Source of the DNA: a virus | Direction: 5' to 3' (one strand) | Length of the DNA stretch: 58,038 nt | IMG/VR virus record: IMGVR_UViG_3300035674_000001 | Location: 64,001-122,038 of that record | In this document: one piece after another, positions 3,867 through 58,038 of the stretch | How the letters are laid out: every line of letters starts with the position of its first letter | Numbering within the stretch: the first letter of the stretch is position 1 | The notes under the pieces: generated by a model | What the model saw: only the letters and a program-made list of their open reading frames with translations | What the model was told of the DNA's origin: nothing | Databases searched by the model: none | Position numbers and translations under genes: made by a program

Positions 3867-3895
3867 TTGACTTTCTCTAAAACCTTAACTAAGCT
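3867..3895 (+). promoter_or_regulatory. TTGACTTT-family promoter
   Basis: ACTAACTTGACTTTCTC with TTGACT at 3867-3872 and TAAGCT at 3890-3895 (17-bp spacer), 36 bp before the ATG at 3932. Confidence 0.6.
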
Positions 3896-3931
3896 TTAAA
3901 TGTCAACTCGGTTAATTAATGTAAGTAACCT

Positions 3932-4111
3932 ATGTACACACCCGAAGAACGCAACGCACTACAAACTCACGAGCAGGCAGTAATAAAAGCCACTACAGCA
4001 CGGGAAAGGCTGCAAGCAGAACTAGACAAAACAACAGGAGAGCGGGTTCAATTAGAAGCACAACTAGCCGAAGTAGAAAGAAAAATCAGTGAACTAAAGA
4101 ACTCTCCTTAA
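3932..4111 (+). CDS. Small coiled-coil protein
   Basis: Fifty-nine residues starting MYTPEERNAL; a TTGACTTT promoter lies at the usual distance upstream and a strong terminator follows at 4177. From about residue 14 to the end it is one amphipathic charged coiled coil. It resembles the product of 2603-2749 in type but not clearly in sequence. Function unknown; small coiled-coil proteins of phages are often adaptors or inhibitors of host proteins. Confidence 0.65.
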   Translation: MYTPEERNALQTHEQAVIKATTARERLQAELDKTTGERVQLEAQLAEVERKISELKNSP

Positions 4112-26703: not shown

Positions 26704-26729
26704 AAAAGAGTAGTTATTTCTTTGTGACA

Positions 26730-27311
26730 ATGCAACAAAAACACCAACCAGATGATTTGTCAGTTTTGTCAATACGTGCTTTTAACTGTTTACGCCACGC
26801 GGGATATACAACAGCCGAGCAAGTCATGACAGCTAGCGATGATGATTTGCTAACGATAAAAGGCATGGGTCATACTACATGGACTGAGATCCGCAGACAC
26901 TTTCCTTATACGCCTTTCAATGAATTAGTCCAACCAGATGATTTGTCAGTTTTGTCATTACGTGCCTCTAACATATTGAAGCGTGGTGGCTATCTAACTG
27001 GAAGTCAGATTCGAGCAGCTAGCAACCATGAGTTAATGCGGTTACCCAATACAGGCAGTACTACCCTGGCTGAAATACGCAGGCACTTTCCCTATACTCC
27101 TAGTGAGCAATCTGGCAATGGGTCTCCCAGTGGTGAAGCTTGCCGGATTCAAATCTCACCAGACCTTCTTGAACGACTTAACGGCATTGCTCACGCTCAA
27201 GGATGGACTACCGAATACTTAATTGATCAGGTATTACGAAATTACTTGCGGATTGAGGCAGATTATGCTGAACCTGACCTAGAGGCAGTGAAAGCGGGTA
27301 TTTTGGAGTAG
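26730..27311 (+). CDS. Putative regulator: two RNAP alpha-CTD-like domains fused to a ribbon-helix-helix domain
   Basis: Protein of 193 residues from ATG 26730 (a GTG lies 6 bases upstream). Residues 7-62 and 69-124 are two copies of a domain matching the C-terminal domain of RNA polymerase alpha (LSVLSIRAFNCLRHAGYTT, then LLTIKGMGHTTWTEIRRHF; the N-C-L and K-G-x-G helix-hairpin-helix features are visible). Residues 137-178 (CRIQISPDLLERLNGIAHAQ, then YLIDQVLRNYL) resemble a ribbon-helix-helix DNA-binding domain. The copies share 24 identical bases at their start (offset 186 bp). Alpha-CTD binds UP elements and activators, so the protein could direct host RNA polymerase. It is not known whether it acts on the TTGACTTT promoters. 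Confidence 0.8.
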   Translation: MQQKHQPDDLSVLSIRAFNCLRHAGYTTAEQVMTASDDDLLTIKGMGHTTWTEIRRHFPYTPFNELVQPDDLSVLSLRASNILKRGGYLTGSQIRAASNHELMRLPNTGSTTLAEIRRHFPYTPSEQSGNGSPSGEACRIQISPDLLERLNGIAHAQGWTTEYLIDQVLRNYLRIEADYAEPDLEAVKAGILE

Positions 27312-40153: not shown

Positions 40154-40480
40154 ATGAAAGAGAGCGCAGTAGACAGACTAATCAAAAGCAAAACCTTTCA
40201 AGAAAAGCTAAAGATTGTGATTACTTACGTTGAAGGTGAATCAGTAAAAGATGTTTCAATTTGGTTTTTGCACTTCACCCCATCTCCCGATGTAATGGTT
40301 CCTTTCAACAAAATATTAGGCATACAAGGGGTTACAGAGTTAACAGGCGAGTATAAGCCGCCTAACAACAAAACAGTGTTTTTACCTGATGAAGGATTTT
40401 CTGCTTTAGAAATTGCTATGGCATTAAAAGAAGATTGGGAAGCAATGAACTTTGATGTAGAGGTTAAACCAGAGCATTAA
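40154..40480 (+). CDS. Hypothetical protein, stop overlapping the tape measure stop
   Basis: Protein of 108 residues with alpha/beta text (VITYVEGESVKDVSIWFLHF). AAGGAG precedes the ATG. Its TAA (40478-40480) overlaps the reverse-strand stop of the tape measure gene (40477-40479), leaving no intergenic space for a terminator between the convergent transcripts. No family recognised. Confidence 0.65.
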   Translation: MKESAVDRLIKSKTFQEKLKIVITYVEGESVKDVSIWFLHFTPSPDVMVPFNKILGIQGVTELTGEYKPPNNKTVFLPDEGFSALEIAMALKEDWEAMNFDVEVKPEH

Positions 40481-43400
40481 ACCCCAAAGTTAAACATCAT
40501 CTTTCTTTGGAGTTCTAGTACTTTACTTGTTGGATCAACCTCGTTCACCAGAGTAAAGTTAGCATCCATACTAGGCTTGCGGTTAGCAATTAAGTTCTTT
40601 ATATCAGCCAGTGCTTTAACTACTGGCTGATTGTTATTTTCAGGGGTACTGGCGCTAACTTCTTTGGTTGCAAAAGGACTAAGTATCTCACTTTTGTAGA
40701 CTTGTGGCAGCAGAATTTCTCTTGTTTCACGAGCGGTTAAAATACGTCCAGCAGTTTGAGGAACAAAGATTTCAGAGCTGGGTAGTATTTTTCCTGTTGA
40801 TGGATCTTCACCTACTATGTAAGGTTGTCCAGGTTGCACCAAACCACCTTTAAAGCGCTTCTGCATTTGTGAGAATGCTAGCGTACTAGTATTGCTAGTC
40901 ATGTTACTGGTAGCCGCCTCAGCTCGCTCTAGTGCCTGTGCTGACTTGCGATCCGCGTCAGCCTTGGCAAGTTGCTCTTTGGTTAGTTCAGCCTGGTTAG
41001 CAAGAATGCTTCTCTGCTTGTCAGCTAGCTGCATTGTTGTGGCTAGCTCTTCTTTCTTGTCGGCTACTTGTCTAGATGAAGCGTCAGCTTGCATCTGTGC
41101 AATCTTTACACCTTGCTGTGCTGCGGCTATAGCAACAGGGTCTTTTACCTTGGCTGTGAGTGCATCATTGAGCTGCTTTTGCGCTGAGACAATATTATTG
41201 CTTGCTTGAAGTTCGTTAAGTTCCGCCTGCTTAACAGCTTGTCGTGCTAGTTGGATATTTCGCAAGTTGTCAAGTTCTGCTTGTTGTCGGCTTAATTCAA
41301 GTTGCTTGAGTTTAGCTTCTTCTTGTAGCTTCGCTAGTTTGTTTTCTGCGTCTTGTCGTTTTTGTATTATTTCCAACTCACTTGAAGCACCAGAGAATCC
41401 CATTGTGCCAAGTTGCTTTTCTATTTCAGAGCGTGCCTCACCTGATAGATCTTTGTTGTCCAGCTTACGCCTCAGTTCTAGCGCTCTATTGTACTTGTCA
41501 ACTTGGCTTTGACCTCTAAATTCGCCTAGAGCCGAGCGAGACTCGCCTAAATCCTGATTGGCTTTAGCTAGCTTAGCTTGACGGTCATAGCTTGCAATTA
41601 ACAAGTCCTGTGCTTTAGACTCTTGCTCTGCAAGTGCTATGGCTGCTTCAGCGTTAAGCTTCCGGGTGTCTAGTACCTCATCAAGACTACGCTTGACAGC
41701 ATCCCTGTGATTGTCTTCAAGCGCAACTTGACTGTCTATGCGCTGTTTGGTTAGATCTAGTATGCGCTGGTCAGAAGATTGAACATCAAGAACCCGCTTC
41801 TGTTCATCTAAAGGATTAGAGAAGCGAACTTTTTTCATCGCTTCATTGCGAGCTTGTTCACTACTTAACTCAACCTGAATCCGTTCGGATTGAGCTTGGA
41901 GGCGTTCTCCTTCTAGTGCAATTTGTTTCGGTACTGTACGATCTTGATTGAAGATAGTTTCGGCATCAAGTACACGTTGAGTCTCTGCTAACTTAGCCGT
42001 ATTGTTAGCTTCATTGAGATGTTGTTCAAGTAAGTTGTTTAAATTGTCGTAGTGTTCTTTAGCGGCTTTGCTTTGACGTTCGTTTAATTCAGCTTCCTGC
42101 TGTTCTATTTTTCTTAGCTCTTCAGGATTGCTACCTAAGTCAGTTTTGCGTTGTCCCAAGACATCACGCTGTTTTTTAATTCCCTCAAGCGTGATTTGAT
42201 ATTGTTGGTCGTAATAGTTTTGAGCTGTAGTAGCACCAGATTCAAGCTGTGAGCGTAGACTAGCTTGACTTGCCTCAACTCGCTGCTTTTCTAAGTTGTC
42301 CCGCTCATCATAGTAAGCTCTCAGGTTATCTATGCCACGCTTCCTGATATTGGCTTCTTCAGTCTGGATCTTGTCTAGTTCTCTGGGGTCTAATCCAAGA
42401 CTGCTTTGTTTGCGTTCTTGCAGTATAGCCAGCTCTTGTGCATTAACATCCCGCTGCTTGGCTAATCTGGCATTTAGATAATCTTCATCAAAGGTACCAC
42501 CTTCGGCATGAGCTGCCTCTAGTTCGGCAATCTCTGCATCGGAACGAGACTTAATTAAATTTTGCCGCTCTTCATAGTAAGAACGCAAGTTATCTAAAGC
42601 TTGCTTCCTAATAGCTGCTTCTTCGGTAAGTATCTTGACAAGCTCTTTAGGATCCAATCCCAAGTTACTTGATTGTCGCTCCTGAAGTACAGCTAGTTGT
42701 TGCTGACTAGATGCATCTTGCATAGCCAGTCGTTCTTGTAGATAGTCCTCATCTACTATACCGCCTTCTCCACGAGACACTTCTAATTGAGCTAATTCTG
42801 CATCAGATTGAGACTTGATTAAGTTCTGCCGTTCTTCATAGTAAGATCGCAGGTTATCTAAGCCACGTTTCCGGATAGCTGCTTCTTCGGCTTCAATTTT
42901 GGCTAATTCCCTAGGATCACGTCCTAAGTTGCTATTGCGCCGCTCGTTAAGTATTGCCAGCTCTTGGTCATTGAATGCCTGTTGCTTATCCAGTCGCTCT
43001 TGCAGATAATCATCGCCAACGACCGCACCTTCTGCATTCATTGCCTCAAGCTCTGACAATTCAGCATCACTTTGAGACTTAACCAAGTTCTGCCGTTCTT
43101 CATAATATTGTCGGAGATTATCTAATCGCTTTTTGTCAATTTCGTTTTGTTCGTTATCTAGCTTGATTTTTTCTCTGGGGTCTTGTCCCAACGGCGACTG
43201 ACGTTTTTGTTCTAGCGCATCTTCTTGCTCATCTAGTGATTGATTAGATAGCTCTAGTCGCTTATTAAAAAACTCATCTGAGTTGACTTCACCTAAAGCA
43301 AAGCGATTTTCTTCTGTGCCGATTAATGCTTGGTACTTGCTTTGTGTTAACTGATTTAGCTCATCATAATATTGCCTGTAGGCATCCAGGCGCTTTTTGT

Positions 43401-46400
43401 GATTTTCTGCTTCTTGCTTGGTAATTTCATCAAGCGCTAATTGATTCTTGGCTGGAGTGCGCTTACGTTGCTCACTAAGCACTTTATCTAAATCATTGGC
43501 ATTTTTTAACGCACTAGCTAACCTATCTTGATTAAACCTATCAAAAGATACTTTGCCATCAGCCAGTGTCCTTTCATCTTGAGCTTTCTGGCTTTCGTAA
43601 CTGGTGTTAATTTGATTAGATCGCTCACTAGCGTAGTTCTTAATAGAATCCTGTTGCTGTTTGTAAACTTCGGCTTCTTTTACATCTAACTTGCGAGTTA
43701 ACTCAGGATTGTTTTTGCCAATGCGCTTACGCTCTGCCGTAATAGCATCAAGCTGCTGTTTGGTTTGTTTGTCTGTAATATCAAGGCTCTTGCGTGCGCC
43801 TTCTTCAGCCGTGATAGCACCACTAGCAACTTGACCCTCTGAGATGGTCTTTACATCAGAGTAGTAACCCTTGATGTCATTAAGTTGGTTGTCTAGCCTG
43901 TTTTTCTCTATCTCGTTAGATTTTTCAGCAACCCTAGTTCTAGATTCTATAAGCTGCTTGCTTAAATCTCGTTCTCGCTGAATAAACTCTTTGGCTGACA
44001 GCTTGTCTCTGGAGTCACGCAGATCGCTAAGCTGTTGCTCCATGTCACTAACTTGCTCCAGAGATGCTTGCAATTCATTATCGGCACGAGCATTTGATGC
44101 TGCACCTTCTCTGAGTTTGCCTTTGCCAACGGACTTGGTTATTTCTTCGCTTTGGATGGCAGTATGAGACTCGGCTTTAGTTTGCCTGGATTTACTACGC
44201 TCATCTATTCTGGCAAGTTCTTCTGATTCTTCAGCTTGTCTAACTTGTAACTCAGCTTCAGTAAGCTGTAGGCGCTTTTCACCCGTTTTTGCTTCTTCTT
44301 CTCTGTATTGGATAGTTGCATCTAAGATGGCGCGATACTTGCTATTTTTTTGTGAGTCTGGCTTAAGTTCTTCTTCTTTGACCTTAGTTCTTAAATCACC
44401 AATGCTGGCATTTTCATCGATGCCTCTCGCTTTAAGGATTTCTTTAAATTCAGGGTTTTGCAGTTGAACTTTAAGGTCATTCTGAGATTTGTCTCTGGCT
44501 TCTAGTTCTTGTTTTAATCCCTCAACCTGATTCTTTGCTGTTTGAGTTGCGGCTTTTTGATTAGCAAATTGGTCTGTTCCAAAGTCTTTAAGTTCAGCTT
44601 GTTTAGCAGCTAAATTACGAGTAGTAATATATGCTCTACCTTTGCGCTCAGCCTCTTCTAGTGAAGCAGCAATCATGTTGATTGCATTGGCAAACTTAAC
44701 AAGCGGGTCAGTATTAGGAGCAGCCACCCGGTCAAGCATATCTTTCCACTTTTGAGCAGAGTCAAGTCGAGCTTGTAGCATTTGCTTAACTTGTGGATCT
44801 TGCTCGTTTGCAACCTGCTCTTTAAGTTGCGTAATAGTTCCCGACAGTTGCGACTGGAACTCGGTTAACTCAGTTGCTTTCTCTTTGCGTTGCTCATTGA
44901 GTGCTTTAAGTTTTGCTTCGCCTTCTTGTCTACCTTTGGGATCTGTGTCAGGTATTCCCGATAACACAGCCGATTGTTGTGATATTTGTCTATCTATTTC
45001 TTGTACAGCGGCTAAGTCTCCTCTGGCTGCTAGCTTGCGTTTCCCTGTCTTAGGATCTCTTTCAGCAGATAAGCCAATATACTGTTGAGATTGACCTATG
45101 AGTTTGTCTATATTTTCTCCTGCTTCACCTGCCGCTACTCGACGTTCATCCCGTGCCTTTTCAGACCAGCCATAATAGCCAGTGTCACTGCCACCCGTTC
45201 TTACGGTCATTACAGCACGATTCACGGCATAGCCTACAGGAGCAGCAATAGCGCCTCCTACAGCCGCAGCGATAGCCATAGGTAGTGCTGCCATAACAGC
45301 AGGCATCCCTGCCGCTACTCCACCAGCCATTTGAAATGCTGCATAGCCAGCAACACTTCCAGCACTAGCCGCTAACATTCCTCCTGATTTAAGCACTGCA
45401 CCTGTATCAGCTTTACGTTCCCCTGCAAACCCTCCAAGAGATCGTCCTACTTCATCAAATATGTTGGCAGGAGGTGGCGTATATTCTTTGTTGGCAATAT
45501 TGTCTAATTCTTTATTGGTTTTATTTGCTGCATCTGCTATTTTCTTTAGTCGCTGAGAAGTTTCATCGGCAAATTTTGCCATGTCACCTCCCTTATCAGT
45601 TATGCCACCATAGATGCTGCTAAATGTACTCATTACGGCATTAATGGCAATAAACTGAGCAAGAAAGGGTAAAGCGATGCGTGCAATAAACCCCATAGTT
45701 GCACTTAATCCCATAATGGCAATGTTTAGCAAGCTAACTGAACCAATACTTGCTGTAAACATACTTAGTCCAGTTCGGATTGCAACTATGGCACTACTAG
45801 TAGCTAAGGCGGTTAATGTTCCACCAGATGTTCTTAGTCCTTCATTGACTAAATCTATACCGCTGGCTGTTGTGTTGAGTACCCTTTGAGCAACAGGAGC
45901 AAGTATTTTACCAAAACTTATTTGTAACTCCTGAGTTGAGTTTTGGATGTTGTACATGCTAGATAGCACGTTGTTACTAGCATCTTTAACTGAACCTCCA
46001 AACTCGGTTTTTAACTGTCTGCTAAACGCTGGGAAAAATCGTTCAACGTCTATTAAGCCAGCCTCTAAGCTTTGGTTTAGCTCGCCAACGCTCATACCCA
46101 TTGATCGAGCTGCTATTTGCATTGTACCGGGGAGCTGAATACCTAACTCGTATTTGAGCTTGTCTGTGCTAACCTTGCCTTGAGATGCCATGTCACCAAG
46201 TACATTTAGCACTCGGTTTTGCTGATCGGCGCTCCAAGACATAACTGTACTAACATCAGTAATACTCTGGAATAACTCATTAGTCGCGGCACCAGCGACA
46301 TTGCTTCCTTTCGTACTAGCCGAAAGCTGAGAGTATCCTTCTATAGAAGACAGCAAGGGAATCTTTTTCTCTTTAGACTCACCTCGAACAAATTCAACAG

Positions 46401-49400
46401 CCTTGTCTCCGGCAACAACTCCACCTTGAGCAAAGTTAAGCACTGTCTTTAACTTGTCAAACTGAGCATAAGCTTTAATCGCTTCAACACCAGCATTCTT
46501 GATAAAGTCAGTTGCAACTCGAATCGCTTGAAAGCTTAAAAAACCTTGAGTAAATTGTCTTAAGTTTGTCCCTAACCCATCAAAGACTTTATTGCCTGTT
46601 TCTTCTAGTAGCTCCAGTGGCTTGTGAATACCATTGAAGCCAACTTTAAACGCTGTACTTACTGCTTTGGCTTTAAATCCAATGTCGTCTAGTGTTCCAC
46701 CTACTTTATCTCCAGCATCGGTAAACTGAACAGCTTCTTTGGCTATGCTAGGTAGTTGACTAATTCTTGTATTGACATCAATTTTGCTGGCAACTCTACC
46801 AATAACGCGAGGTAAGCCAAGTGTGAGTCGAGAAGCTAATGCTCCTAAGTTACTTAATCCTGGTTTTTGTATTTCTTCTAGTTGTTTACCTACTTGAATG
46901 CTTGCAGATACTTTCTTAAATGAAGTAATCCAGTCTGATTGAAACTTGCCTAACGCTTTACCAAAGTCTAGCTTGCCTCGCAGCCGGATAACATCTTCTG
47001 CCAGGTTTTGCATGGGAGTCTTTAATGCAGCAACTCCACCAACCCCCGCTATTCCAACTTCGGCTAACGCTGGACTAACTCTTTCTACAGCTTTATAGAC
47101 TTTTCCAGGTAGCTTGTCTTGTTGACTGACTCGACCAAGGTTTACACCAGCACGAACATCTTGGTCATAGCTAGAGGCAATTAAACGGCTATTATCAGCA
47201 ACAAACTTTGTTGCTGATTGGTATGCTTTGCTAGCAACTTTTCCAACTATTGGTATTCGAGATATTAATCCGGACTGTGCAGCCATACCTGACGCTTCAG
47301 CTCTTTCAGGTATAGTGTTAGCGATACCTTCACCTGTAGCTTGAGTTTGTCTGCCTAAGAACTTGCCAAATCGCTCTGTGACACTGGGGAATAATTCTTT
47401 GTAGCTAGGAGTGTTATCAGGGAATAAAAACTTTTCTGTTTGGTTGACTAATTTGTCAACCTCAACCTGTAACCTATCTTGAATTGATTCCAGTATTGGC
47501 TTTCGGGGTTGATTGAGTTTTTTATTAAACTGTCCAATTTTTTCACCAAAGTCTAGAGCAATAGCCTGCATTGTTGGGATTGCGGGTTGCGCTAGTTTGC
47601 CAGTTTTATTTCTTATCTGAATAGCAAACCCTTTAGCTTGCTCTACTTTTTCATTAAAGTAACTTGATAAATTGTTATTTGCCTTACCCGTTTCAATTCC
47701 GATTCGGTTAACAAACTCTAGAGAACGTTTACCAAAGGACTTTAATCTAGCTTTAAGTATTTCTCCGTAGGGTTCAACGGGGACTGATTTAGCTGCTTGA
47801 GGTAAATTTTCAACTTGGTTGATTACTGGTACTTGAGATTCTGTTGCTTTTTGAAGTACTTCTTGAGGATTGTTGTATCCCTGGTCAAATAACTCTTCTA
47901 TCTTTTTATCAGACAGCCTTCTACCAAATGAAATCTTTTGACCAGACAATCCATTAATATAGTCTTCAAATAGCTCTTCCTCGGCATCATCTTTGTTGCT
48001 GCTGATTTTTTTAGATTTGCCAAAGTCTATTATTTTGCTTTGACTTTGCTCATCTAGCATAATATTGCCAGAATGAAAATCACCATGCGTATAGCCTGCA
48101 TCGTGAACCTGACGTAACATCGCGGCATTTTTGGTGATAATGCTGGATAGATCTTTGGTGTTTAGACTATCTGAGAGATCAGCTAAAGTTTTGCCAATTA
48201 CTTGCTCATGAACAAGTAAGTTGTTTTTAACTGCCACAACCTGCGGGATAAAACCTAGCTTTTTGTCTTGAAGTCCTTGTAATGCGCTAGACTCATTTTG
48301 CTGAACAAACTTGTAAGCTAATTTGCGTTTATCATCAGCAGTTGTACCATAGACAGCACCTTCTGAACCCTTACCAAGTAACTTAGTTGTTTCTGGATGT
48401 AGCTGAAGTTCAGGATTAGACTCTAGTTCTTTGTTTATCGCTGTTATGGCATGTTGGTGTTTGCTATGTGCTGGTTTGTTATCAGGAACAGAGTGAGCGG
48501 GTTTAGGCAATTTATTTGATTGCAAATCTATGTTTTCTACGTTTGCTACAAGCAGTTCTCTAGCAGCTTGTATTTTTTCAATATCTTTTGATATTTCAGC
48601 TTTTAACTCATCTGGCAAATCAGAGAACTGAGATGTTACATATTCAACTGTTGAATTTAGGTAGTCAATAATCTCTTTTTTAAATTGAACAACTTCGGGT
48701 GAGTTGTCTTCATTTAGTGCCAGTGCTTCATTAGCGCTTTCAAGAGCATTTCTAATGGTATCTTTTGATTGTGTTTCTACTTCTTTGATACTTAGTTGAT
48801 TTTTTTGTTCGTCTAATTTTGTTGTTAAATCAATGTTTCTTTCCGATGCTTCTAAACTAGCTGCAATTTCTTTTCTTTTTGTTTCTATGTTAGATAAGTC
48901 TTTTAGTATTTCTGATGGCAAATTTTCAGATAACTGCAATATATATTCAGTTGTCTGATCTAAATAATCAATTACTTCTTTTTTGTACTGGATAGCTTCT
49001 GGCGAACTGTCGCCAGCAAAAGACAATCCATCAACAGCATACTCAAATGCATTTGCAATTGCTGTATTAACTTGAGCAGAATCTTCTGGATTCAACTGAT
49101 TAGCAGTTTTAGTTACAGGAGTTTTTTCTATTTGATTTATTTGCTCAACATTGGCAGCAAGTTGATTTCTTTTTTCTTTTATAACATTTAAATCTTCTAC
49201 TATCTTGCTTGGAATATTTTCCGACAACTCTGAGATTTCAGTTGCCATATAATGAAGTGCTTGATCTATAAAATCAAGCATTTGCTTTCTGTATTCTATG
49301 GCTTCAGGAGAATTCTTTTTGTCTTCAATGCTTTTTAATGCTTCATTGACACCTAGCATTGTTTCATCAGACTGTGTTTTAATATCTTCTAGCTTTAGCT

Positions 49401-52400
49401 CTTGTAAATTACTAAATAGCTGATTCCTTATTGAATTAATTTCTTCTAAGTCTTTTAATAATCGAGATTTAACATCTTCAGGTAGTTGAGACGCTTCTTT
49501 TGTTATATCTTTGATTCCAGCGTCTAGATATGCAACCATTTCTTTTTTGTATGCAATGCCTTCAGGGGAATTGTTTTTAACTGTTGGTAGTGATTCTTTT
49601 GCTGCATCAAGTGTTGATTGTTGTAAGCTTCTTATATTTGAAATGCTTCGATAAAGCTTTGGCTTAAGTCTATCTTTGTCTTGGGAGCGCTTTTCATTAT
49701 AAATAAGTTCAAGAATAGCCTCATGTGAATCTTTACGTCCTAAAAACTCTTCAATGGAATGAGTTGATCCTTTAAATATTTTGTCTTGACTGCCTCCATA
49801 TCCCATCAACTTACCAACTTCTAGATTGGTATTTACAATTGGATCACCTTCTAGCGATACTGCTTTATATCGTTGTTCATTCAACCGCCTAACAATATTG
49901 AGGTTTGGTGTACCAATTCCCATAACTTCAACTGGAATGTTCGCAACCGCAGCCATTTCAGCTACGTCTTGAGCGTTGTATCCTCCTCCAGAATGAGAGA
50001 TTACAACTTGTCTTTGCTTTGGGTTTTTCTGATGTGTTTCATATATTTCTCGGAAAAGATTTAAACTATCTGGATTTACATTACCTAAAACATTGCCAAT
50101 AAGTTTTTTAGAATAATTATCATCATCACTGTAAGGATTTTCAAATGCTTTAATTGATACCTGAGGATCGTTTTTAGTTGCAACTTTTAAGTATTCTGCT
50201 ATGTCATGACTGTACTTTCCTTGTAAATCTGCAAAACCAGACACAGCATACACTTTGGTATGTGCATCATCATGCTGTTCATTCGTTGTATTGTCAGTAT
50301 TAGATTTTGCAAAATCTTTTTTAACTTGCTCTACTGCATTTTGTATGTTTTGAGTCTTGACTTGTCTTGCGCCTTGAGCAACAACATCACGAATCGTTGG
50401 AACTTCACCAACTACTTCACCAAGACCGTGATAATACATTCCCTCATATAGTTTTGTTCTAGCTTCTTCCTGCTTCTCTGGAGGCAGCTTAGAAACCCTC
50501 TCTTCTATTTCTTGTTTATGTTTTTCTATGTAAGACGTTTGAATGTAATGAAAAATATCATTGTATTGATTACCACTGTCCTCCTGAGCTTTGATAAATT
50601 CTTTTTGCTTTCCCTTTAATACTTCAACGTCTTTTAGTATTCCAGGCAATTTAGATACTAAATCAATTGGATTGCCTGTTACGCCTCCAATTTTTTCAAG
50701 TAAATTGAAAAGATACTCAACACTACTGGAACCTTTATCAACTTCTATGAAAAATTCATCTAAGTAAGCAGTAAGTGGACTTAGCGCCTCAACTGCCTCT
50801 TGAGCTTTGTCTTCGCTGATTAGACTTTTAGCAACATTTAAGCTTTGTTGTTTTGCAAAATTTTGAACAGGTTTAACAACAGCTTGCTCTATTAGTTGCT
50901 CACTGGGATTGAGCGCTCCCAATGCCGTTAAGTCTTTTGCGTGTTCTTGTCCTTTTACAAAAGATTCTGTATACGGATGTTTTTGTATTTTTTGAGCAAC
51001 TCCTACGACAGGCGCTACTGCTTGTTTTATTGCTTCTTTAGCTTTTGTTTCTTTTTTCTCTTTTTTTGCAGCTTTTTTCTGCTGCATATCTTTCCAAACA
51101 ACATCGGGGTAATATTCTTCTTTTAGTTTTTGCTCAATAGGTTGTGTTATTGCCTTTAGTCGATCTGCAAAGAACTTCTTAACTTGATTAAAGAATTCAA
51201 TTAACTTGCTAGATAAATATCTGGTAAAACCTGTAATGCCTTCTATCAACTCAGGTGATGTAATTTGACCTAATACTTTTGATGAAGTTACAAGCTTTTC
51301 TTTTGCTCTGTCTTGGAGTAAAGGGTTATTTGGTTTTTGTATCCTGAATTCATTTATGGTATCAACAACATCTTTTACTGGATTTCTTGGCTTATCAACT
51401 GCTTTGTCTCCATAGGCAGTCATAAACGCTTGCTTGGTATCTTTTAGATAAGATGTATCTCCTGATTTATCAAACACTTTAATTACATCTTCGATTCGAT
51501 GCAAGACATTGCTTTGTTCCAATTGCTGATATTCTGGTTTTTCGGCAATTCTGGCGTATTCTAAATCTATAAATTTAGGCGTTAAATCTTCTTGAACCAG
51601 AATATTCTGGTTTTGCATATCAGTGTGGATAAAGCCTTTTTCATGAAAGTCTTTAACTGCAATGCCTAAATTTTTGACAATGGTATTAAGCGTTTCTACG
51701 TTTGCAGCTTTTTTCTGTGGATCAGTTTCTTTAACCAGTTCTTGAATAACTGATTGCAAGTCTTTACCTTTGATTTGCTCAGAGACTAATACCTTTTCAT
51801 CCGCATAATGAACGGCAGGAATACTTTTAATGCCAGCCTCTTGCAGACGAATCATTGCAGCCGTTTCGTCTGGATTGGGGTTGGTTTTGTAAGCTAGTTT
51901 GCGTGGGTCATTGGCACTCGATCCTAATACTGTGCTATGTACTCCTGAACCTAGTATTCGAGTGTCGCTAGGATCTAGTGCAAACTCAGTTTTTCCAACA
52001 AATTCAAGTTGGGTATTTATTAATTGAATTGCATTTTTCTTTATTGTTTCATCGTCTTGGGGTTCAGCTTCTTTTTCGTGACCTCCGCCTGCACTAAATG
52101 CAGATTTAAGTGCAGTCTCTACTATTTTCTTGGGAGATACTCCTTTGGCAATCTCGTCTAGTATGTGATCGATAGAATCGTCTAATTCACTCTTAAGCTC
52201 AGAAGAGTAGCTGTCTGCCTTTGTTTTGAATTTACTGGGATCGGAAAAAGCTAATTTGAAACTTGCTTTTAATTGTGTTTTTACAGTTTTAAATAATGAA
52301 CTAACCGAATCATCCATCTCTTGGATAATTGCACCAAATACGTTTCCAGGTAAGCCTTTTAGTGCTGATGGCAGATTTTGGGTTAACTGACTAGCATTTT

Positions 52401-55400
52401 TCGCTTGAGATTTATTTGTTCTTTCGCTTTTTGCAAGCTTTTGTATAATGCCACTTGTATGACGACTCTCAAAAGTATAAGCGTCTTCTTCTATCATTCT
52501 TAGATATTGATTGCCGCTTCCAGTAGAAAAATCAATACCTTTTTGTAATTTATTCTTTTCTTCTTTATTGGGTTTGATAAGCTCAATTGGAATTATTGCT
52601 TTAACGTCTTTTTCGGTAATGTTTTTATCATTAAGAGCTGATGTTGCTTTTGCATAAGTTTCCTTGTCACCAAAGTTAAGCTGCTGTGCATGGCGATTTT
52701 CATGTATTAACGCACTTATCGCATCTTGATAACCAGGATGAGTTTTACCCTGGTTAATTGCCGTCATCTTCTTGTCACTAAGCCATATTGTATTGCTAGG
52801 TGGCGAATACAAACCCCCAACGCCTTTGTATTCCTCTGGATTTCCTCCTTGCAGCTCTACATATTTAAGCCATTGCTGTTGTGTAATTAGTTTTGGTGTT
52901 TGATCTGGATCTATTTTTTCTCCTCTTGAAACTTTGTTAACTTCATTTGCAATAAATTCTTGTATTCTTATTGCTTCGGGACTAGCAATAATGAGATACT
53001 CTTCTTTGGCTTTTTCTTCTTTAACGTATTCTTGAGCATGAGTGCGAGTATTAACTTGATCAGTATTTATGTTTGCACTTACGCTTGCACTAGCTTGCTT
53101 ATTTCCACCAAACAAAGAGAAAACATTAGAGAAAAAACCTTTGATTATTTTGGCTATCTCTTGAACAAGATTTCCTATAAAACCACCTGGCAATGATCTG
53201 GATGCTTGGATTTCATTGGATGCATTGCTTTGCTTGATTTTGCTAGTTTTGAGTTTTTGAGCAATATCATCTCCCTCTTCATCTTCAAACACATAAGCAT
53301 CTTCTTCTATAGCTCGGTTGAATCGGTTTGTTTCACCTGCTGAGCCTTTGATGCGATGATTCAACTTAATTTGCTGAATAGCATTAGCATGGCGAAGTTC
53401 GATTGGACTAGCTTGCTTTATTTCTTCTGGCTCAGCCTTGCCTGAGTGATAATACTGGTCAAAGAATGCAGATGTTCTATCACCCAGCTTGTATTGCTGC
53501 GCATGGCGATGTTCATGAGCTAGTGTTTTAACCGCATTGGTGTAATGCTTGTTTGACTCGCCTTCTTGTAAGGCTTGGCGATACGTTTCTCCTAATATTA
53601 TGCTGTTGTGAACAGGATCGTATAACCCGCCTCGCTTATGAGTTACTGGAACATCTTTACCAGCTAGTTTTGTATATTCTTCTTGAGAGAGCAATTGAGG
53701 CAACTTACTTGTATCTAGCTGTTGTCCACTACGTTTTGCTACTTCTTCTGCAACAAATTGATGAGCATGAGATAATTTATCTTCTGGAGTCAACTCTTCT
53801 TGTGGCTCGGTGTCACCACCTACGGCTTGACTTATCGATTGAGAAGCAAAACTAGTCTGTATTTGCTCAATAAAAGCATTGACTGTGGATGCAATGTATT
53901 CAAATAAGTTGATACTGCTAACCTGAGTTGAATTAACCAACTTGTCTTTTACCGAATCTACGGTTTGCTGAAATCCCATTTGCAAGCTTTGCAGCATACT
54001 GGGGACTGACCAGGCAATATCAGGCAAGTCTTCTTCTCGAAAGACAAACTCAGATGCCTGGGTTTGGTTTTTTGGTGTCTCATCAGCGACACGTTCTTGA
54101 TATCTGTATCGCTCTTGTGCTATTATTTTTAGTTTTTTATCATCAGTTATTACTCGTTGAAGTTGTCGATTGGCATTAACCTCAGTGATTGTGTTTTCTG
54201 TTAAAGGCTCTCGAACAGGCTTGGGTATATCTCCTTCAGATTGTTCAACAACTTTTCTAGCTTGTTCTAGCTGAACTTGAACTTTCTGTTTTAGTGGTTC
54301 ATTTTTGCCGTAGCGCTCTAAATACTGACGTGTTTGAGAGTCAACATCTTTTGTTAGCTCTTCTTGTATGTTTTCATATTCTTGATCAATAAGATTAATT
54401 AGCTCTTCTAACTGAGCCAATTTAGCTCGACCAGGCTGAGATTTTTCTATTTGCTTTAATGCTGTCTTAAACTGTTCTCTATTTGCCTGAGCTTGTGACA
54501 CATAGTCTTTTTTGGTTCCAGTACTACCCTGAGGTAAGTAAGCTCCTTTGGCTGGTAATTCAATACCTAGAGGACGAACATCATTGTTAGGTGTATTGGT
54601 TTGTTTGACAACTTTCCTAACTGATTCTTTGGCTTGAGATTGAACAGTTTGTTTTGAATTAGACTCTTGCTCTTGCTGTAACTCTCTTACAATTTCTGCT
54701 GTACGTTCTTGATATGCCTGTCTTAGTTCTTCTTCTTTTTGTTCGTAAGCAGCACGAATCTGCTGAAATTCATTGACAACATCTTCGGTTGATTGATTAA
54801 TTTGAGCAATAATCGTATCAATAACTTGTCCAGCTTCTTGTATTTTTGCTTTAACTATTCCTGTTTGCTGTTTGTTTTCCTGGGTTTGTGCAGCAACTTT
54901 TTGCATATCTAAAGAAGGCTGCATAGACTTCTGTGATGTTGCTTGTTGCTTAATTACTTCTGTTTGTGCATTTACATGATTTTGATTGGCAGCAAACCCA
55001 GGCGATTTAAAATTTTCAAGATTGTTTAAAAACTCTTTGGGTTCTACTTTATGTAAGATGTATTCTTTTTGCTCCTCACTTAAGTACTTAGCTTGACCGT
55101 CTACAAATTCAGTTAACTTTTGCTGCAACTCATCATGCAGCACATAAGTTGGTAAAGTATGAAGTATGCCAGATTTAGTTGATTGATGAGTATCAGGAGT
55201 TTTGATTCCCCCTAAAACACGCATATAGTCTAGTTCACCCATTAGATTTAAGTTTCTAGACGGATCTTGCTCTGCGTTAGTAATTAAAGGTGTGCCAAAA
55301 GTAAACGACTTGACATTTATATTGCCTTGTCGTGCCATTTCAGCAAAGTCGCTAGCAACTCCACCACCTGCTGAATATCCTGTAGCAACATACTCAATCT

Positions 55401-57780
55401 CTTTATCCGGGTTAGCCAACTCGATTCGATAAACTTCTTTCAGTGCATCTACAGCATCTTGATTAAATCCTTTAAGTTGAATCCGCAACAATCTACCTAG
55501 ACCACTACCCATCCATTTTTTGATATCTGTTTTTCCAGATACAGCGGCATCGGTTTCTTTGTTTAAGACTGGAACTACTGCGTGTTCTGGAAAAATTTGC
55601 TGCATTATTTCAGCATGCCGATAAGAGCCTTTTCCTTGTTCTCCGCCAAATCCTGCAATTGGCAAAATAACCTTATTGGTATTGTCGCTAAGTTTTTTGC
55701 CTTCTAAATAAGACTCACCTTGCTCTGCATATTCTTGATTGACTTCTTCACGAGCTTGTACTGCTATCTTGGCAAAATTAGCTCGATAGCGCTTAATGCT
55801 AGCTTGTAGTAAATTGCCGTCATTTTGAGTTTCTTCTAAAAACCTTTGAATATCACCTATATATGCTTTAAAGTCTTCTTCGCCTTCTGTAATACCTAAC
55901 TTGCTACTTAGTCTTTCTAATCCCTTTGCTGTTCTAGTGCCAGAAACAGCACCTAGATTTCCTAAATCTAAACCTAACCCTGATTCAACTGCGTTAGACA
56001 CACCTTTGCCAAACTTTTCTGCAAATTGATAACTAACTTGACTTTTAAACCCTTCAACTGTGCGTAAAATGGGTTTTGCAACTAAGTTGCTAGCAAGATT
56101 AAACCCACTTTTAAATAACTTGAGTATTGGGTTTTCTTTGGGACTTATTGCATTAACAATTCGGTCTGTGGCGGTATTAATTGTATTGTGAAGACTTCCG
56201 ACTTCACGATTAACGCCAGTGGCGGCAGCAGAGCCTATAGACTGGCTACTAAGTTGATTAACAGGCTGAGCTGTAGTTTGACTGGCAACGTTTGTACCTG
56301 TAGCTGTAGATATCTCACCCTTATCTAGCTGCTTAGCTCGTGTTGATTCAATTGAGTTAAAGTACTCGTTATATTTACGTGTATTGGCAACAGCTAAATC
56401 AGCTTGATTTTTAACAAAGTTAGCCGCAGGTGTTGGTAGCCTGCTTGTAATAGATTGAACTTTCTGATCGTAAGATTCAAGTCTTGTATCAAGCGCTGTA
56501 TTTGCTTTTTGGACTACGTTACGGGTATCTTCTGTTTTGGTTATAGGTCTACCGTATTTGTCGTACTGAGATGCTGATACAGCCTTGCTGACGTTCTCTT
56601 GTGCCTGCCTCTTGCCGCCTAAAGCTTGCTCTACTGGAATAGAGCTTTGTCCTGATTGATCTCCACCAAAGCTTTCTAAGAAGTTAGCCGTTTTTCTTAG
56701 TCCAGCAGTTTGTCTAGTTGCAGATTCATTGGCTCGTTCAGCAAGAACTGTAGGAACTTTTAATCCAGGAAATCGCACTAAAGCATCAACGGCTGTTGTG
56801 TATTTGTTCAGCTTGCTGTTGATGCTTTTACCAATTCCCGGTAATACTTGTGTTGATACAGCGGTAAGTAGCTGATAACCAATTGCGCTAGAGAAGCCAC
56901 TGGCTATATCGCCAAAAACACCACCTACCACACTTCCGACAGCACGTACAGGCGACAAAGGCGATGGTGGAGTAGGTTTACCACCAGGAAACTTAATGAT
57001 TTTGCCTAGTTGTTTGCTAAGCTCTCCTTTTTCGCTAAGAATAGCGTTAACAATGTCTCGAACACCATCATTGATAGTGTTGATTACTTTAGGTGCATCT
57101 GTAATAGTGATGCCAGCTTTAAATCCTTGGCTTGCTGAAACACCTCCTCTTGCTTCTATGCCTGGAAATATTTCTTTAGCAATTTTTGCTTTAGGATTTC
57201 GGCTTAGCTGAGCCATGTATCTTGTATCATCTTCTCTTCCCCTAAGTTCTGCTTTAGGAAAATTAGATACTGGCTCTATTTGTATGCTGATTTTGCGAGG
57301 CTTGGTTAACTTCTTGATTTCCTTTTCAGCATCTTCTGTGTCTACTTCAGCCTCGACTTGGACTTTTGGTTTTTGTTTTTTTTTGCTAAGTCGCTGATCT
57401 ACTCTATCGGCTATTTTGTCTACTAACTTATCAAGTTCTGATTCGCTGACATCAACTTTAATTTGTGTTTCAGGTTTTATCTGAGCCGCTTTAGCCTTAA
57501 TTTCGTTAAGACTATCTTTGCTGATAGCAAGATTTAACTTGAAGTTTTCACTATTAAGTTGAGTTTTAAGCTGTTCAATAATATTTGCAGTATCGGTGTC
57601 TAAACTAATACTGATAGGCTCTGCGCCAATTTCTTGTAATCTTTCTCTTAGTTGATCTGCTATTTCATCAGAGTTTGTCTCGATTGGCAGATCAACATCA
57701 GGAATATTTTTACCTAAGTCTTTTAGGTCTTTTTTAAGCTGACGTGAGTCTAGCCTAGCAACAAAAATAATATCAGCCAT
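40477..57780 (-). CDS. Giant tail tape measure protein with duplicated enzyme-like domains
   Basis: Protein of 5767 residues. Order: N-terminal region (1-700); lipase-like domain 1, about 715-900 (GYSAGGG, S803); HExxH 1 (HEHRH, H1422-E1423-H1426); HExxH 2 (HENRH, H1693-H1697); kinase-like domain 1 about 1925-2170 (GSG loop from 1944, D2054, N2059, D2072); lipase-like domain 2 about 2510-2690 (S2597 in SHSGGG, then GDPIV, then STHS); four repeats of 85-102 residues; kinase-like domain 2 about 3110-3280 (HGD, D3234, N3239, D3252-FG); tape measure N-terminal domain (about 3790-3970); hydrophobic segments about 3990-4065 and 4130-4190; a coiled coil to about 5640, with 88-residue repeats; and the C-terminal tape-measure motif GGLVQPGQPYIVGE...EIFVP. 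Tape measure length sets tail length in phages; the enzyme-like insertions are unusual. Translated from ATG 57780 with GGGGGA 9 bases upstream. Confidence 0.9.
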   Translation of the reverse strand: MADIIFVARLDSRQLKKDLKDLGKNIPDVDLPIETNSDEIADQLRERLQEIGAEPISISLDTDTANIIEQLKTQLNSENFKLNLAISKDSLNEIKAKAAQIKPETQIKVDVSESELDKLVDKIADRVDQRLSKKKQKPKVQVEAEVDTEDAEKEIKKLTKPRKISIQIEPVSNFPKAELRGREDDTRYMAQLSRNPKAKIAKEIFPGIEARGGVSASQGFKAGITITDAPKVINTINDGVRDIVNAILSEKGELSKQLGKIIKFPGGKPTPPSPLSPVRAVGSVVGGVFGDIASGFSSAIGYQLLTAVSTQVLPGIGKSINSKLNKYTTAVDALVRFPGLKVPTVLAERANESATRQTAGLRKTANFLESFGGDQSGQSSIPVEQALGGKRQAQENVSKAVSASQYDKYGRPITKTEDTRNVVQKANTALDTRLESYDQKVQSITSRLPTPAANFVKNQADLAVANTRKYNEYFNSIESTRAKQLDKGEISTATGTNVASQTTAQPVNQLSSQSIGSAAATGVNREVGSLHNTINTATDRIVNAISPKENPILKLFKSGFNLASNLVAKPILRTVEGFKSQVSYQFAEKFGKGVSNAVESGLGLDLGNLGAVSGTRTAKGLERLSSKLGITEGEEDFKAYIGDIQRFLEETQNDGNLLQASIKRYRANFAKIAVQAREEVNQEYAEQGESYLEGKKLSDNTNKVILPIAGFGGEQGKGSYRHAEIMQQIFPEHAVVPVLNKETDAAVSGKTDIKKWMGSGLGRLLRIQLKGFNQDAVDALKEVYRIELANPDKEIEYVATGYSAGGGVASDFAEMARQGNINVKSFTFGTPLITNAEQDPSRNLNLMGELDYMRVLGGIKTPDTHQSTKSGILHTLPTYVLHDELQQKLTEFVDGQAKYLSEEQKEYILHKVEPKEFLNNLENFKSPGFAANQNHVNAQTEVIKQQATSQKSMQPSLDMQKVAAQTQENKQQTGIVKAKIQEAGQVIDTIIAQINQSTEDVVNEFQQIRAAYEQKEEELRQAYQERTAEIVRELQQEQESNSKQTVQSQAKESVRKVVKQTNTPNNDVRPLGIELPAKGAYLPQGSTGTKKDYVSQAQANREQFKTALKQIEKSQPGRAKLAQLEELINLIDQEYENIQEELTKDVDSQTRQYLERYGKNEPLKQKVQVQLEQARKVVEQSEGDIPKPVREPLTENTITEVNANRQLQRVITDDKKLKIIAQERYRYQERVADETPKNQTQASEFVFREEDLPDIAWSVPSMLQSLQMGFQQTVDSVKDKLVNSTQVSSINLFEYIASTVNAFIEQIQTSFASQSISQAVGGDTEPQEELTPEDKLSHAHQFVAEEVAKRSGQQLDTSKLPQLLSQEEYTKLAGKDVPVTHKRGGLYDPVHNSIILGETYRQALQEGESNKHYTNAVKTLAHEHRHAQQYKLGDRTSAFFDQYYHSGKAEPEEIKQASPIELRHANAIQQIKLNHRIKGSAGETNRFNRAIEEDAYVFEDEEGDDIAQKLKTSKIKQSNASNEIQASRSLPGGFIGNLVQEIAKIIKGFFSNVFSLFGGNKQASASVSANINTDQVNTRTHAQEYVKEEKAKEEYLIIASPEAIRIQEFIANEVNKVSRGEKIDPDQTPKLITQQQWLKYVELQGGNPEEYKGVGGLYSPPSNTIWLSDKKMTAINQGKTHPGYQDAISALIHENRHAQQLNFGDKETYAKATSALNDKNITEKDVKAIIPIELIKPNKEEKNKLQKGIDFSTGSGNQYLRMIEEDAYTFESRHTSGIIQKLAKSERTNKSQAKNASQLTQNLPSALKGLPGNVFGAIIQEMDDSVSSLFKTVKTQLKASFKLAFSDPSKFKTKADSYSSELKSELDDSIDHILDEIAKGVSPKKIVETALKSAFSAGGGHEKEAEPQDDETIKKNAIQLINTQLEFVGKTEFALDPSDTRILGSGVHSTVLGSSANDPRKLAYKTNPNPDETAAMIRLQEAGIKSIPAVHYADEKVLVSEQIKGKDLQSVIQELVKETDPQKKAANVETLNTIVKNLGIAVKDFHEKGFIHTDMQNQNILVQEDLTPKFIDLEYARIAEKPEYQQLEQSNVLHRIEDVIKVFDKSGDTSYLKDTKQAFMTAYGDKAVDKPRNPVKDVVDTINEFRIQKPNNPLLQDRAKEKLVTSSKVLGQITSPELIEGITGFTRYLSSKLIEFFNQVKKFFADRLKAITQPIEQKLKEEYYPDVVWKDMQQKKAAKKEKKETKAKEAIKQAVAPVVGVAQKIQKHPYTESFVKGQEHAKDLTALGALNPSEQLIEQAVVKPVQNFAKQQSLNVAKSLISEDKAQEAVEALSPLTAYLDEFFIEVDKGSSSVEYLFNLLEKIGGVTGNPIDLVSKLPGILKDVEVLKGKQKEFIKAQEDSGNQYNDIFHYIQTSYIEKHKQEIEERVSKLPPEKQEEARTKLYEGMYYHGLGEVVGEVPTIRDVVAQGARQVKTQNIQNAVEQVKKDFAKSNTDNTTNEQHDDAHTKVYAVSGFADLQGKYSHDIAEYLKVATKNDPQVSIKAFENPYSDDDNYSKKLIGNVLGNVNPDSLNLFREIYETHQKNPKQRQVVISHSGGGYNAQDVAEMAAVANIPVEVMGIGTPNLNIVRRLNEQRYKAVSLEGDPIVNTNLEVGKLMGYGGSQDKIFKGSTHSIEEFLGRKDSHEAILELIYNEKRSQDKDRLKPKLYRSISNIRSLQQSTLDAAKESLPTVKNNSPEGIAYKKEMVAYLDAGIKDITKEASQLPEDVKSRLLKDLEEINSIRNQLFSNLQELKLEDIKTQSDETMLGVNEALKSIEDKKNSPEAIEYRKQMLDFIDQALHYMATEISELSENIPSKIVEDLNVIKEKRNQLAANVEQINQIEKTPVTKTANQLNPEDSAQVNTAIANAFEYAVDGLSFAGDSSPEAIQYKKEVIDYLDQTTEYILQLSENLPSEILKDLSNIETKRKEIAASLEASERNIDLTTKLDEQKNQLSIKEVETQSKDTIRNALESANEALALNEDNSPEVVQFKKEIIDYLNSTVEYVTSQFSDLPDELKAEISKDIEKIQAARELLVANVENIDLQSNKLPKPAHSVPDNKPAHSKHQHAITAINKELESNPELQLHPETTKLLGKGSEGAVYGTTADDKRKLAYKFVQQNESSALQGLQDKKLGFIPQVVAVKNNLLVHEQVIGKTLADLSDSLNTKDLSSIITKNAAMLRQVHDAGYTHGDFHSGNIMLDEQSQSKIIDFGKSKKISSNKDDAEEELFEDYINGLSGQKISFGRRLSDKKIEELFDQGYNNPQEVLQKATESQVPVINQVENLPQAAKSVPVEPYGEILKARLKSFGKRSLEFVNRIGIETGKANNNLSSYFNEKVEQAKGFAIQIRNKTGKLAQPAIPTMQAIALDFGEKIGQFNKKLNQPRKPILESIQDRLQVEVDKLVNQTEKFLFPDNTPSYKELFPSVTERFGKFLGRQTQATGEGIANTIPERAEASGMAAQSGLISRIPIVGKVASKAYQSATKFVADNSRLIASSYDQDVRAGVNLGRVSQQDKLPGKVYKAVERVSPALAEVGIAGVGGVAALKTPMQNLAEDVIRLRGKLDFGKALGKFQSDWITSFKKVSASIQVGKQLEEIQKPGLSNLGALASRLTLGLPRVIGRVASKIDVNTRISQLPSIAKEAVQFTDAGDKVGGTLDDIGFKAKAVSTAFKVGFNGIHKPLELLEETGNKVFDGLGTNLRQFTQGFLSFQAIRVATDFIKNAGVEAIKAYAQFDKLKTVLNFAQGGVVAGDKAVEFVRGESKEKKIPLLSSIEGYSQLSASTKGSNVAGAATNELFQSITDVSTVMSWSADQQNRVLNVLGDMASQGKVSTDKLKYELGIQLPGTMQIAARSMGMSVGELNQSLEAGLIDVERFFPAFSRQLKTEFGGSVKDASNNVLSSMYNIQNSTQELQISFGKILAPVAQRVLNTTASGIDLVNEGLRTSGGTLTALATSSAIVAIRTGLSMFTASIGSVSLLNIAIMGLSATMGFIARIALPFLAQFIAINAVMSTFSSIYGGITDKGGDMAKFADETSQRLKKIADAANKTNKELDNIANKEYTPPPANIFDEVGRSLGGFAGERKADTGAVLKSGGMLAASAGSVAGYAAFQMAGGVAAGMPAVMAALPMAIAAAVGGAIAAPVGYAVNRAVMTVRTGGSDTGYYGWSEKARDERRVAAGEAGENIDKLIGQSQQYIGLSAERDPKTGKRKLAARGDLAAVQEIDRQISQQSAVLSGIPDTDPKGRQEGEAKLKALNEQRKEKATELTEFQSQLSGTITQLKEQVANEQDPQVKQMLQARLDSAQKWKDMLDRVAAPNTDPLVKFANAINMIAASLEEAERKGRAYITTRNLAAKQAELKDFGTDQFANQKAATQTAKNQVEGLKQELEARDKSQNDLKVQLQNPEFKEILKARGIDENASIGDLRTKVKEEELKPDSQKNSKYRAILDATIQYREEEAKTGEKRLQLTEAELQVRQAEESEELARIDERSKSRQTKAESHTAIQSEEITKSVGKGKLREGAASNARADNELQASLEQVSDMEQQLSDLRDSRDKLSAKEFIQRERDLSKQLIESRTRVAEKSNEIEKNRLDNQLNDIKGYYSDVKTISEGQVASGAITAEEGARKSLDITDKQTKQQLDAITAERKRIGKNNPELTRKLDVKEAEVYKQQQDSIKNYASERSNQINTSYESQKAQDERTLADGKVSFDRFNQDRLASALKNANDLDKVLSEQRKRTPAKNQLALDEITKQEAENHKKRLDAYRQYYDELNQLTQSKYQALIGTEENRFALGEVNSDEFFNKRLELSNQSLDEQEDALEQKRQSPLGQDPREKIKLDNEQNEIDKKRLDNLRQYYEERQNLVKSQSDAELSELEAMNAEGAVVGDDYLQERLDKQQAFNDQELAILNERRNSNLGRDPRELAKIEAEEAAIRKRGLDNLRSYYEERQNLIKSQSDAELAQLEVSRGEGGIVDEDYLQERLAMQDASSQQQLAVLQERQSSNLGLDPKELVKILTEEAAIRKQALDNLRSYYEERQNLIKSRSDAEIAELEAAHAEGGTFDEDYLNARLAKQRDVNAQELAILQERKQSSLGLDPRELDKIQTEEANIRKRGIDNLRAYYDERDNLEKQRVEASQASLRSQLESGATTAQNYYDQQYQITLEGIKKQRDVLGQRKTDLGSNPEELRKIEQQEAELNERQSKAAKEHYDNLNNLLEQHLNEANNTAKLAETQRVLDAETIFNQDRTVPKQIALEGERLQAQSERIQVELSSEQARNEAMKKVRFSNPLDEQKRVLDVQSSDQRILDLTKQRIDSQVALEDNHRDAVKRSLDEVLDTRKLNAEAAIALAEQESKAQDLLIASYDRQAKLAKANQDLGESRSALGEFRGQSQVDKYNRALELRRKLDNKDLSGEARSEIEKQLGTMGFSGASSELEIIQKRQDAENKLAKLQEEAKLKQLELSRQQAELDNLRNIQLARQAVKQAELNELQASNNIVSAQKQLNDALTAKVKDPVAIAAAQQGVKIAQMQADASSRQVADKKEELATTMQLADKQRSILANQAELTKEQLAKADADRKSAQALERAEAATSNMTSNTSTLAFSQMQKRFKGGLVQPGQPYIVGEDPSTGKILPSSEIFVPQTAGRILTARETREILLPQVYKSEILSPFATKEVSASTPENNNQPVVKALADIKNLIANRKPSMDANFTLVNEVDPTSKVLELQRKMMFNFGV
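42301..43380 (-). repeat. Exact 264-bp tandem repeats in the tape measure coding sequence
   Basis: The phrase encoding YYEERQNL recurs at 42301, 42565, 42829, 43093 and about 43357, each exactly 264 bp apart (88 codons), in the coiled-coil region (residues about 4800-5160). Such repeats are a hallmark of tail length variation by unequal recombination. Confidence 0.88.
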
Positions 57781-57858: not shown

Positions 57859-58038
57859 CTATTCTTGTGCTGCACGTCGCTGCAATTCTCTTAAGTTTAG
57901 TTGCTCAGTCGATTCTAATGAAATAGAATCGACTTGATTAGCATCTGGTTGACTAGCTAGCTGTTGATTTTCTCCTTCTCTGCCTGTTACTCTTTCTGTT
58001 GTTTCGCTTGCGTCTTTGCCTCTGGCTTCTTGAAAGCT
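57859..58038 (-). CDS. C-terminal end of a structural gene upstream of the tape measure gene, cut by window edge
   Basis: Reverse-strand frame open from the right edge to a TAG at 57859-57861; the last 59 residues end ELQRRAAQE. Polar, Gln/Glu/Arg-rich and probably helical. Genes directly upstream of tape measure genes usually encode tail assembly chaperones or tail tube proteins, so that is the best positional guess; sequence alone does not identify it. The 78-bp gap to the tape measure ATG holds the stem-loop. Confidence 0.6.
   Translation of the reverse strand, partial: SFQEARGKDASETTERVTGREGENQQLASQPDANQVDSISLESTEQLNLRELQRRAAQE

Follow-up and report, generated by a model that had tools for sequence, protein, structure and literature searches.

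A 5767-residue phage tape measure protein with predicted hydrolase, zincin and kinase domains as candidate enzyme cargo

The window analysed here is a stretch of 58,038 nucleotides, bases 64001-122038 of a 122,038-base IMG/VR virus record (IMGVR_UViG_3300035674_000001). One minus-strand open reading frame (ORF) runs from window position 57780 down to 40477 without interruption, encodes 5767 amino acids and takes up about 14% of the phage genome. Its ATG is preceded by AGGGGG, a stretch that resembles a ribosome-binding site. The initial annotation had read it as a tape measure protein (TMP), and this holds: the ORF is continuous and matches the Pfam tape measure family TMP_3 (PF20155) with an E-value of 1.7e-23. 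An artefactual ORF was considered and ruled out by the lack of any stop codon in 17.3 kb, by similar architecture in independent genomes, and by the ends of the record, which close an ORF.

Seen alone, the window resembles the end of a linear molecule; the genome nonetheless closes to a circle. The two ends of the record share exactly 127 identical bases (window 57912-58038, the same as L003:1-127), and once this overlap is removed a 196-codon ORF spans the join as the immediate upstream neighbour of the tape measure gene. The overlap and the ORF that closes across it show that the assembly is complete and circular, at 121,911 bp. This genome encodes recognised capsid, portal, terminase, DnaB, primase and endolysin genes, and is thus that of a tailed phage; the tape measure gene sits at its expected place on the closed circle; the ORFs at the tube and chaperone positions match no PHROG. 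Elsewhere on the plus strand of the window are a 195-aa ORF (26724-27311) with two copies of a motif that by eye resembles the C-terminal domain of RNA polymerase alpha (DDLSVLSIRAFNCLRHAGYTTAEQV...), a 326-aa ORF (17277-18257) with an internal direct duplication (MSKSIWHTLIDRENVWRFRYNAETKL...), and two genes that look by eye like a response regulator and a sensor histidine kinase (7383-8006 and 18928-20430).

The tape measure ORF was mapped with Pfam, PHROGs and BLAST of segments of the protein against each other. The features are given below in window coordinates, from the N-terminal end of the protein to its C-terminal end; H stands for alpha/beta-hydrolase, M for zincin metallopeptidase and K for kinase-like domain.

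57859..58038, minus: small ORF, 3' end, continuing at base 1 of the record; adjoins the tape measure gene upstream, in tail-assembly position
40477..57780, minus: whole tape measure ORF, 5767 aa, identified from the ORF and its relatives
55711..57780, minus: N-terminal leader, aa 1-690, alpha/beta and coil, without a Pfam family
55111..55689, minus: H1, predicted alpha/beta-hydrolase, aa 698-890; S803, D851, H874; Lipase_3 6e-5, above cut-off, and profile against PDB lipases
53248..53763, minus: M1, predicted zincin metallopeptidase, aa 1340-1511; HEHRH at 1422, E1492; Pfam, BLAST against M2, alignments
52429..52959, minus: M2, predicted zincin metallopeptidase, aa 1608-1784; HENRH at 1693, E1764; homology to M1 and an AlphaFold2 model
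51211..52047, minus: K1, RIO/Kdo/protein-kinase-like, aa 1912-2190; K1965, D2054, N2059, D2072; Pkinase 1.9e-10, RIO1 2.9e-9
49708..50277, minus: H2, second predicted alpha/beta-hydrolase, aa 2502-2691; S2597, D2646, H2674; missed by Pfam alone
48511..49605, minus: helical repeats of about 85 aa (NSPEaiqYKKEmidYLD...), aa 2726-3090; GC 0.32, the minimum of the gene
47761..48543, minus: K2, RIO/ABC1-like kinase, aa 3080-3340; K3157, D3234, N3239, D3252; Pkinase 2e-12, RIO1 5.8e-11, ABC1 1.7e-10
45751..46533, minus: tape measure core, PF20155 TMP_3, aa 3750-4010; PHROG tape measure 4e-22
40480..45750, minus: C-terminal helical repeats, aa 4011-5767, without a Pfam or PHROG family; likely the length-measuring part

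The tape measure signature scores 83.8 bits against a curated cut-off of 41 and matches aa ~3767-3953. It had been placed at the C-terminus, and it turns out to be mid-protein; the last 1750 aa are helical repeats. All of the enzyme-like domains lie N-terminal to this core, in the order H1-M1-M2-K1-H2-K2. Two hydrolase, two zincin and two kinase motif sets had been noticed in the sequence, and they correspond to pairs whose members are homologous over their length, with the expected catalytic residues present in all six domains. The segment comparisons align H1 with H2 at 28% identity over 159 columns (E 6e-10), M1 with M2 at 34% identity (E 3e-34) and K1 with K2 at 32% identity (E 4e-19).

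The family matches behind these domains differ in strength. H1 is above the Pfam cut-off for Lipase_3 (23.4 against 22 bits), and the nucleophile elbow of H2 reads SHSGG. The only Pfam match for the M pair is a putative metallopeptidase family, below its curated cut-off (M1 to DUF6782 at 1.5e-4); the zinc motif residues are H1422-E-H1426 and E1492 in M1, and H1693-E-H1697 and E1764 in M2. Both K1 and K2 pass the Pkinase, RIO1 and Kdo cut-offs, and K2 passes ABC1 in addition. K1 has DLE at D2072 and K2 has DFG at D3252. Their Pkinase matches end at positions 153-156 of the 263 in the profile, which suggests a reduced C-terminal lobe, as in RIO and ABC1 kinases. Pfam finds no MuF domain in the ORF.

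An AlphaFold2 model of M2, made from three input sequences, is confident (pLDDT 80, pTM 0.81) and places strands first and helices after. Its fold matches are not significant: the best in the PDB is the ArdC antirestriction protein at E 0.76, and among viral models (BFVD) vRNAP, ART-PolyVal, SprT and IrrE proteins are frequent, the best match being E 0.035 and those to vRNAP and PolyVal 0.07 and weaker. The H1 model is of low confidence (pLDDT 45), and its leading PDB matches are nearly all thioesterases, cutinases and esterases. Profiles were also compared with PDB sequences. The H profile finds lipases and a family-5 carbohydrate esterase (best 7e-5), the K profile finds the kinase domain of LanKC (1e-9), and the best match of the M profile is the peptidase region of the phage N4 virion RNA polymerase, at an E-value of 0.03 that is weak taken alone.

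The initial annotation had described the domains as present in duplicate. There are indeed two of each kind, arranged as H-M-M-K-H-K and not as three neat tandems. M1 and M2 are sisters in a phylogenetic tree with support 95/91, which is consistent with an origin by tandem, local duplication. For the H copies the tree is mostly unresolved and has several long branches, and it does not bring H1 and H2 together. Internal duplication as the source of all three pairs was considered and rejected for H; the M pair is the only one that groups with support. GC3 is 0.19-0.30 in the region of the enzyme domains, against 0.34 in the tape measure core and tail part, and this lower value hints that the enzyme region had a history different from that of the tape measure part.

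The first relative found is a prophage of Anabaena lutea FACHB-196, whose tape measure protein has 3106 aa, a single M domain and a core 39% identical to that of the window protein. Relatives were then sought in whole genomes of the order to which this strain belongs (n = 391). The core is present in 27 of the 391 genomes, and in about 17 of these 27 an H domain, an M domain or both, sometimes with K, lie on the tape measure protein or an adjoining ORF, always upstream of the core. The M profile matches 6 of the 391 genomes and the H profile 10, almost all in the giant ORF that has the tape measure core. In tape measures free of these domains the core usually falls within the first 110-640 aa, with L085 as an exception. 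The sets observed are H, H+H, M, M+M, H+M, H+K and the H+M+M+K+H+K of the window, which is the largest. Duplication is thus not a general pattern: some relatives have one domain, some have two of the same kind and others a mixture.

Iterated profiles were run on the full set of 703 ORFs from the retrieved loci. They converge on 15 ORFs that share 17 copies of H and 8 ORFs that share 10 copies of M, together with kinases in L087 and L046. Weak H or M matches in L124, L125 and L126, which have no tape measure core, and in host enzymes of 250-400 aa were excluded from the members. The catalytic serine is kept in 17 of 17 H copies, the histidine in 16 of 17, and the preceding aspartate, as read from the alignment, in all. 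The M copies keep HExxH and the distal glutamate, with alignment positions H86, E87, H90 and E157 invariant in 9 copies. H and M copies are otherwise only 20-36% identical. A phylum-wide search with richer profiles is bimodal, with E-values below 1e-20 only in giant phage ORFs and ordinary host enzymes at 1e-5 to 1e-3.

Deposited phages have no comparable fusion of a tape measure with such enzymes. The H+M region of the window has no match in 50,697 phage and 72,556 plasmid records, and the K1-H2-K2 region finds a distant kinase of S-CBWM1 as its only match among deposited phage records. Two side observations concern other tape measures. The segment at about aa 1186-1301 of the L023 tape measure, between its two peptidase domains, has no Pfam family and is like tape measures of Staphylococcus, Arthrobacter, Streptococcus and Paracoccus phages. 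L090 (8633-11671, plus strand) encodes a tape measure with Peptidase_M23, the ordinary cell-wall-cutting type.

The same enzyme domains are also found on proteins other than the tape measure. Genome G017 has a cargo-free tape measure protein (L080), and its H domain lies on a Phage_Mu_F (MuF) protein of 1645 aa near a capsid gene (L045:7335-12272, minus strand). The cultured cyanophage CL131 (L093, MG209611.1) carries four H domains, one of them in gp047 and the other three in gp048, and these two genes adjoin the tape measure gene gp049 on its upstream side; gp047 and gp048 together also have five copies of a cysteine motif, CKxGxxCGxxCIxxxxxC. In G518 a 1023-aa ORF with an M domain directly precedes a tape measure that holds another M. 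Because the domains are found fused to the tape measure, beside it or on a head protein, a payload fits better than a structural role.

The identification of the window protein as a tape measure with hydrolase, zincin and kinase domains is supported. It is also, in our judgement, probably the tape measure of a long-tailed, siphovirus-like cyanobacterial phage that brings enzyme cargo to its host at infection, where virion location, delivery, activity and targets are what we infer. The idea of effector cargo, already put forward in the initial annotation, has gained strong comparative support at the sequence level: the domains recur in cyanobacterial tape measures, on the MuF protein and in the genes before the CL131 tape measure, with their catalytic residues kept. 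An arrangement that is recurrent, mobile and catalytically conserved fits tail-delivered effector cargo, with a tape measure as the backbone of a polyvalent protein.

How such a protein might work can be sketched. The part from about aa 3330 to 5767 would most likely do the ordinary work of a tape measure, with its C-terminus anchored in the tail tip, setting tail length and helping to form the DNA conduit, and some 3,000 aa of modules (two putative serine hydrolases, two zinc peptidases and two kinases) would have been added ahead of the core. Siphophage tape measures have their C-terminus in the tail tip, and this end is the first to leave. By that order the N-terminal cargo would ride in the tube and exit last, just ahead of the DNA, and the enzymes would be delivered to the inner membrane or across it as infection begins. 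Since kinases need ATP, the cytoplasm is the expected site for at least part of the cargo. The zinc peptidases may release the other modules by cleaving the chain, cleave host proteins, or both; the M domains may instead or in addition process their own chain. Acyl esters or thioesters are the probable substrates of the hydrolases, and membrane lipid and acylated host factors are candidates. The kinases would phosphorylate host targets, or could act on small molecules, as APH and Kdo families also match.

Work on other phages bears on the passage itself. The window core matches the tape measures of a phage group that includes JBD30, at 24-26% identity, and in JBD30 the tape measure is a trimer in a 180-nm tail (PMC11445458). 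The lambda tape measure is labelled by a fusion to an inner-membrane permease and is bound by a membrane-anchored defence nuclease during injection (PMC13190303). By our own estimate, a folded domain of 200-250 aa measures about 37-40 A across, roughly the width of a tail lumen, so the cargo would have to travel unfolded, in single file or outside the tube. One tape-measure-like effector has been suggested to refold after ejection (PMC13277306).

A broader proposal, which we put forward tentatively and find a little harder to believe than to doubt, is that phages of filamentous cyanobacteria use the tape measure as an exchangeable effector platform. Cassettes of H, M and K domains would be swapped before the conserved core, beside it or onto MuF proteins and would reach the cytoplasm with the DNA, a tail-borne counterpart of the polyvalent and MuF systems. 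If this is true, a large phage lineage would use its tape measure, beyond its roles as ruler and conduit, to carry enzymes that are made in advance and directed at the host. That would account for tape measures far longer than the tail requires, offer three new enzyme families for assay, and give a natural precedent for folded or refolding cargo in a non-contractile tail. CL131 and the Anabaena lutea prophage are direct test material.

Other readings of the same domains were weighed. Unlikely, in our view, but deserving serious thought, is that they are machinery for entry and self-processing, with nothing meant for the cytoplasm: the peptidases would mature or cut the tape measure chain at assembly or ejection, and the hydrolases would loosen the envelope (outer membrane or lipid) at docking. 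Zincins in polyvalent proteins have been proposed to process their own chain (PMC5512222), tape measures with peptidoglycan-cutting domains exist, as in L090, and the hydrolase is the commonest cargo and the sole cargo in several relatives. This reading leaves unexplained the kinases, whose need for ATP implies a cytoplasmic site and which co-occur with H in L046 and L087, as well as the H domain on a MuF head protein.

A role as a polymorphic toxin, in which the chain would serve particles or lysogens as a weapon against rival bacteria, as has been proposed for MuF toxins, and play no part in infection, seems very improbable. Temperate phages commonly encode MuF proteins that have toxin domains (PMC5576092) and an H domain rides on MuF in G017, but the domains here lie mid-chain in an essential tail protein and not at a variable C-terminus, and the genes that follow the tape measure gene, which are on the opposite strand, include none that looks like an immunity gene. 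We give least credence to the added sequence being old enzyme domains that merely lengthen the ruler for a very long tail: at 0.155 nm per residue (from the 180 nm and 1158 aa of JBD30) all 5767 residues together would reach ~0.89 um, not far short of P74-26, whose tail of nearly 1 um is the longest known, but the H and M copies retain their catalytic residues at 20-36% identity, the CL131 hydrolases are in genes apart from a 2131-aa tape measure that by itself fits a 361-nm tail, and globular domains make poor rulers.

Among the published systems closest to the preferred reading, a tape measure that delivers enzyme cargo, are the polyvalent proteins of phages and conjugative elements (Iyer et al. 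2017, PMC5512222), which also put unrelated enzyme activities into one very large phage chain. Theirs have one to five HEXXH...E zincins per chain and kinases, and are proposed to enter with the DNA and to process themselves. The window chain has at least two disparate activities (hydrolase, zincin, kinase) in one phage protein, its zincin core has an HEXXH helix and a glutamate in a later helix, and K1 and K2 share the loss of the C-terminal lobe with the polyvalent kinase clade. That clade has an insert between the catalytic His and Asp, whereas K1 and K2 read HTD and HGD with no insert, and the words "lipase" and "tape measure" each occur 0 times in the text of that paper. We class the window protein as a tape measure that probably works like a polyvalent protein; the similarity that would place it in the published class is suggestive, not significant. 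The virion RNA polymerase of phage N4 is likewise a giant virion protein, injected before the DNA, and its zincin is the nearest solved structure by sequence to the M profile, though weakly so; it differs in being a head-packaged polymerase with no tail ruler and no hydrolase or kinase.

MuF polymorphic toxins (PMC5576092) also have enzyme domains on a virion protein, 20% of their toxins are metallopeptidases, and the relative L045 pairs H with MuF. Their carrier is a head protein and their toxin C-terminal, whereas here the carrier is a tape measure and the cargo internal; the text of that paper mentions neither tape measure nor lipase. Among contractile injection effectors, Sle1 and Tme (PMC13277306, PMC11126660) have a tape-measure-like coiled coil that carries exchangeable domains in a tail-like tube. 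They belong to bacterial injection systems with a single C-terminal domain and no phage genome, whereas the present case is a phage tape measure with up to six N-terminal enzymes. Searches of open-licence papers turned up no tape measure with lipase, metallopeptidase and kinase domains, an absence that is not proof. Peptidoglycan-cutting tape measures (M23, T5 pb2) do hold an enzyme within a tape measure; theirs is a single cell-wall enzyme for penetration, whereas the window protein appears to bring lipase-, zincin- and kinase-type domains together.
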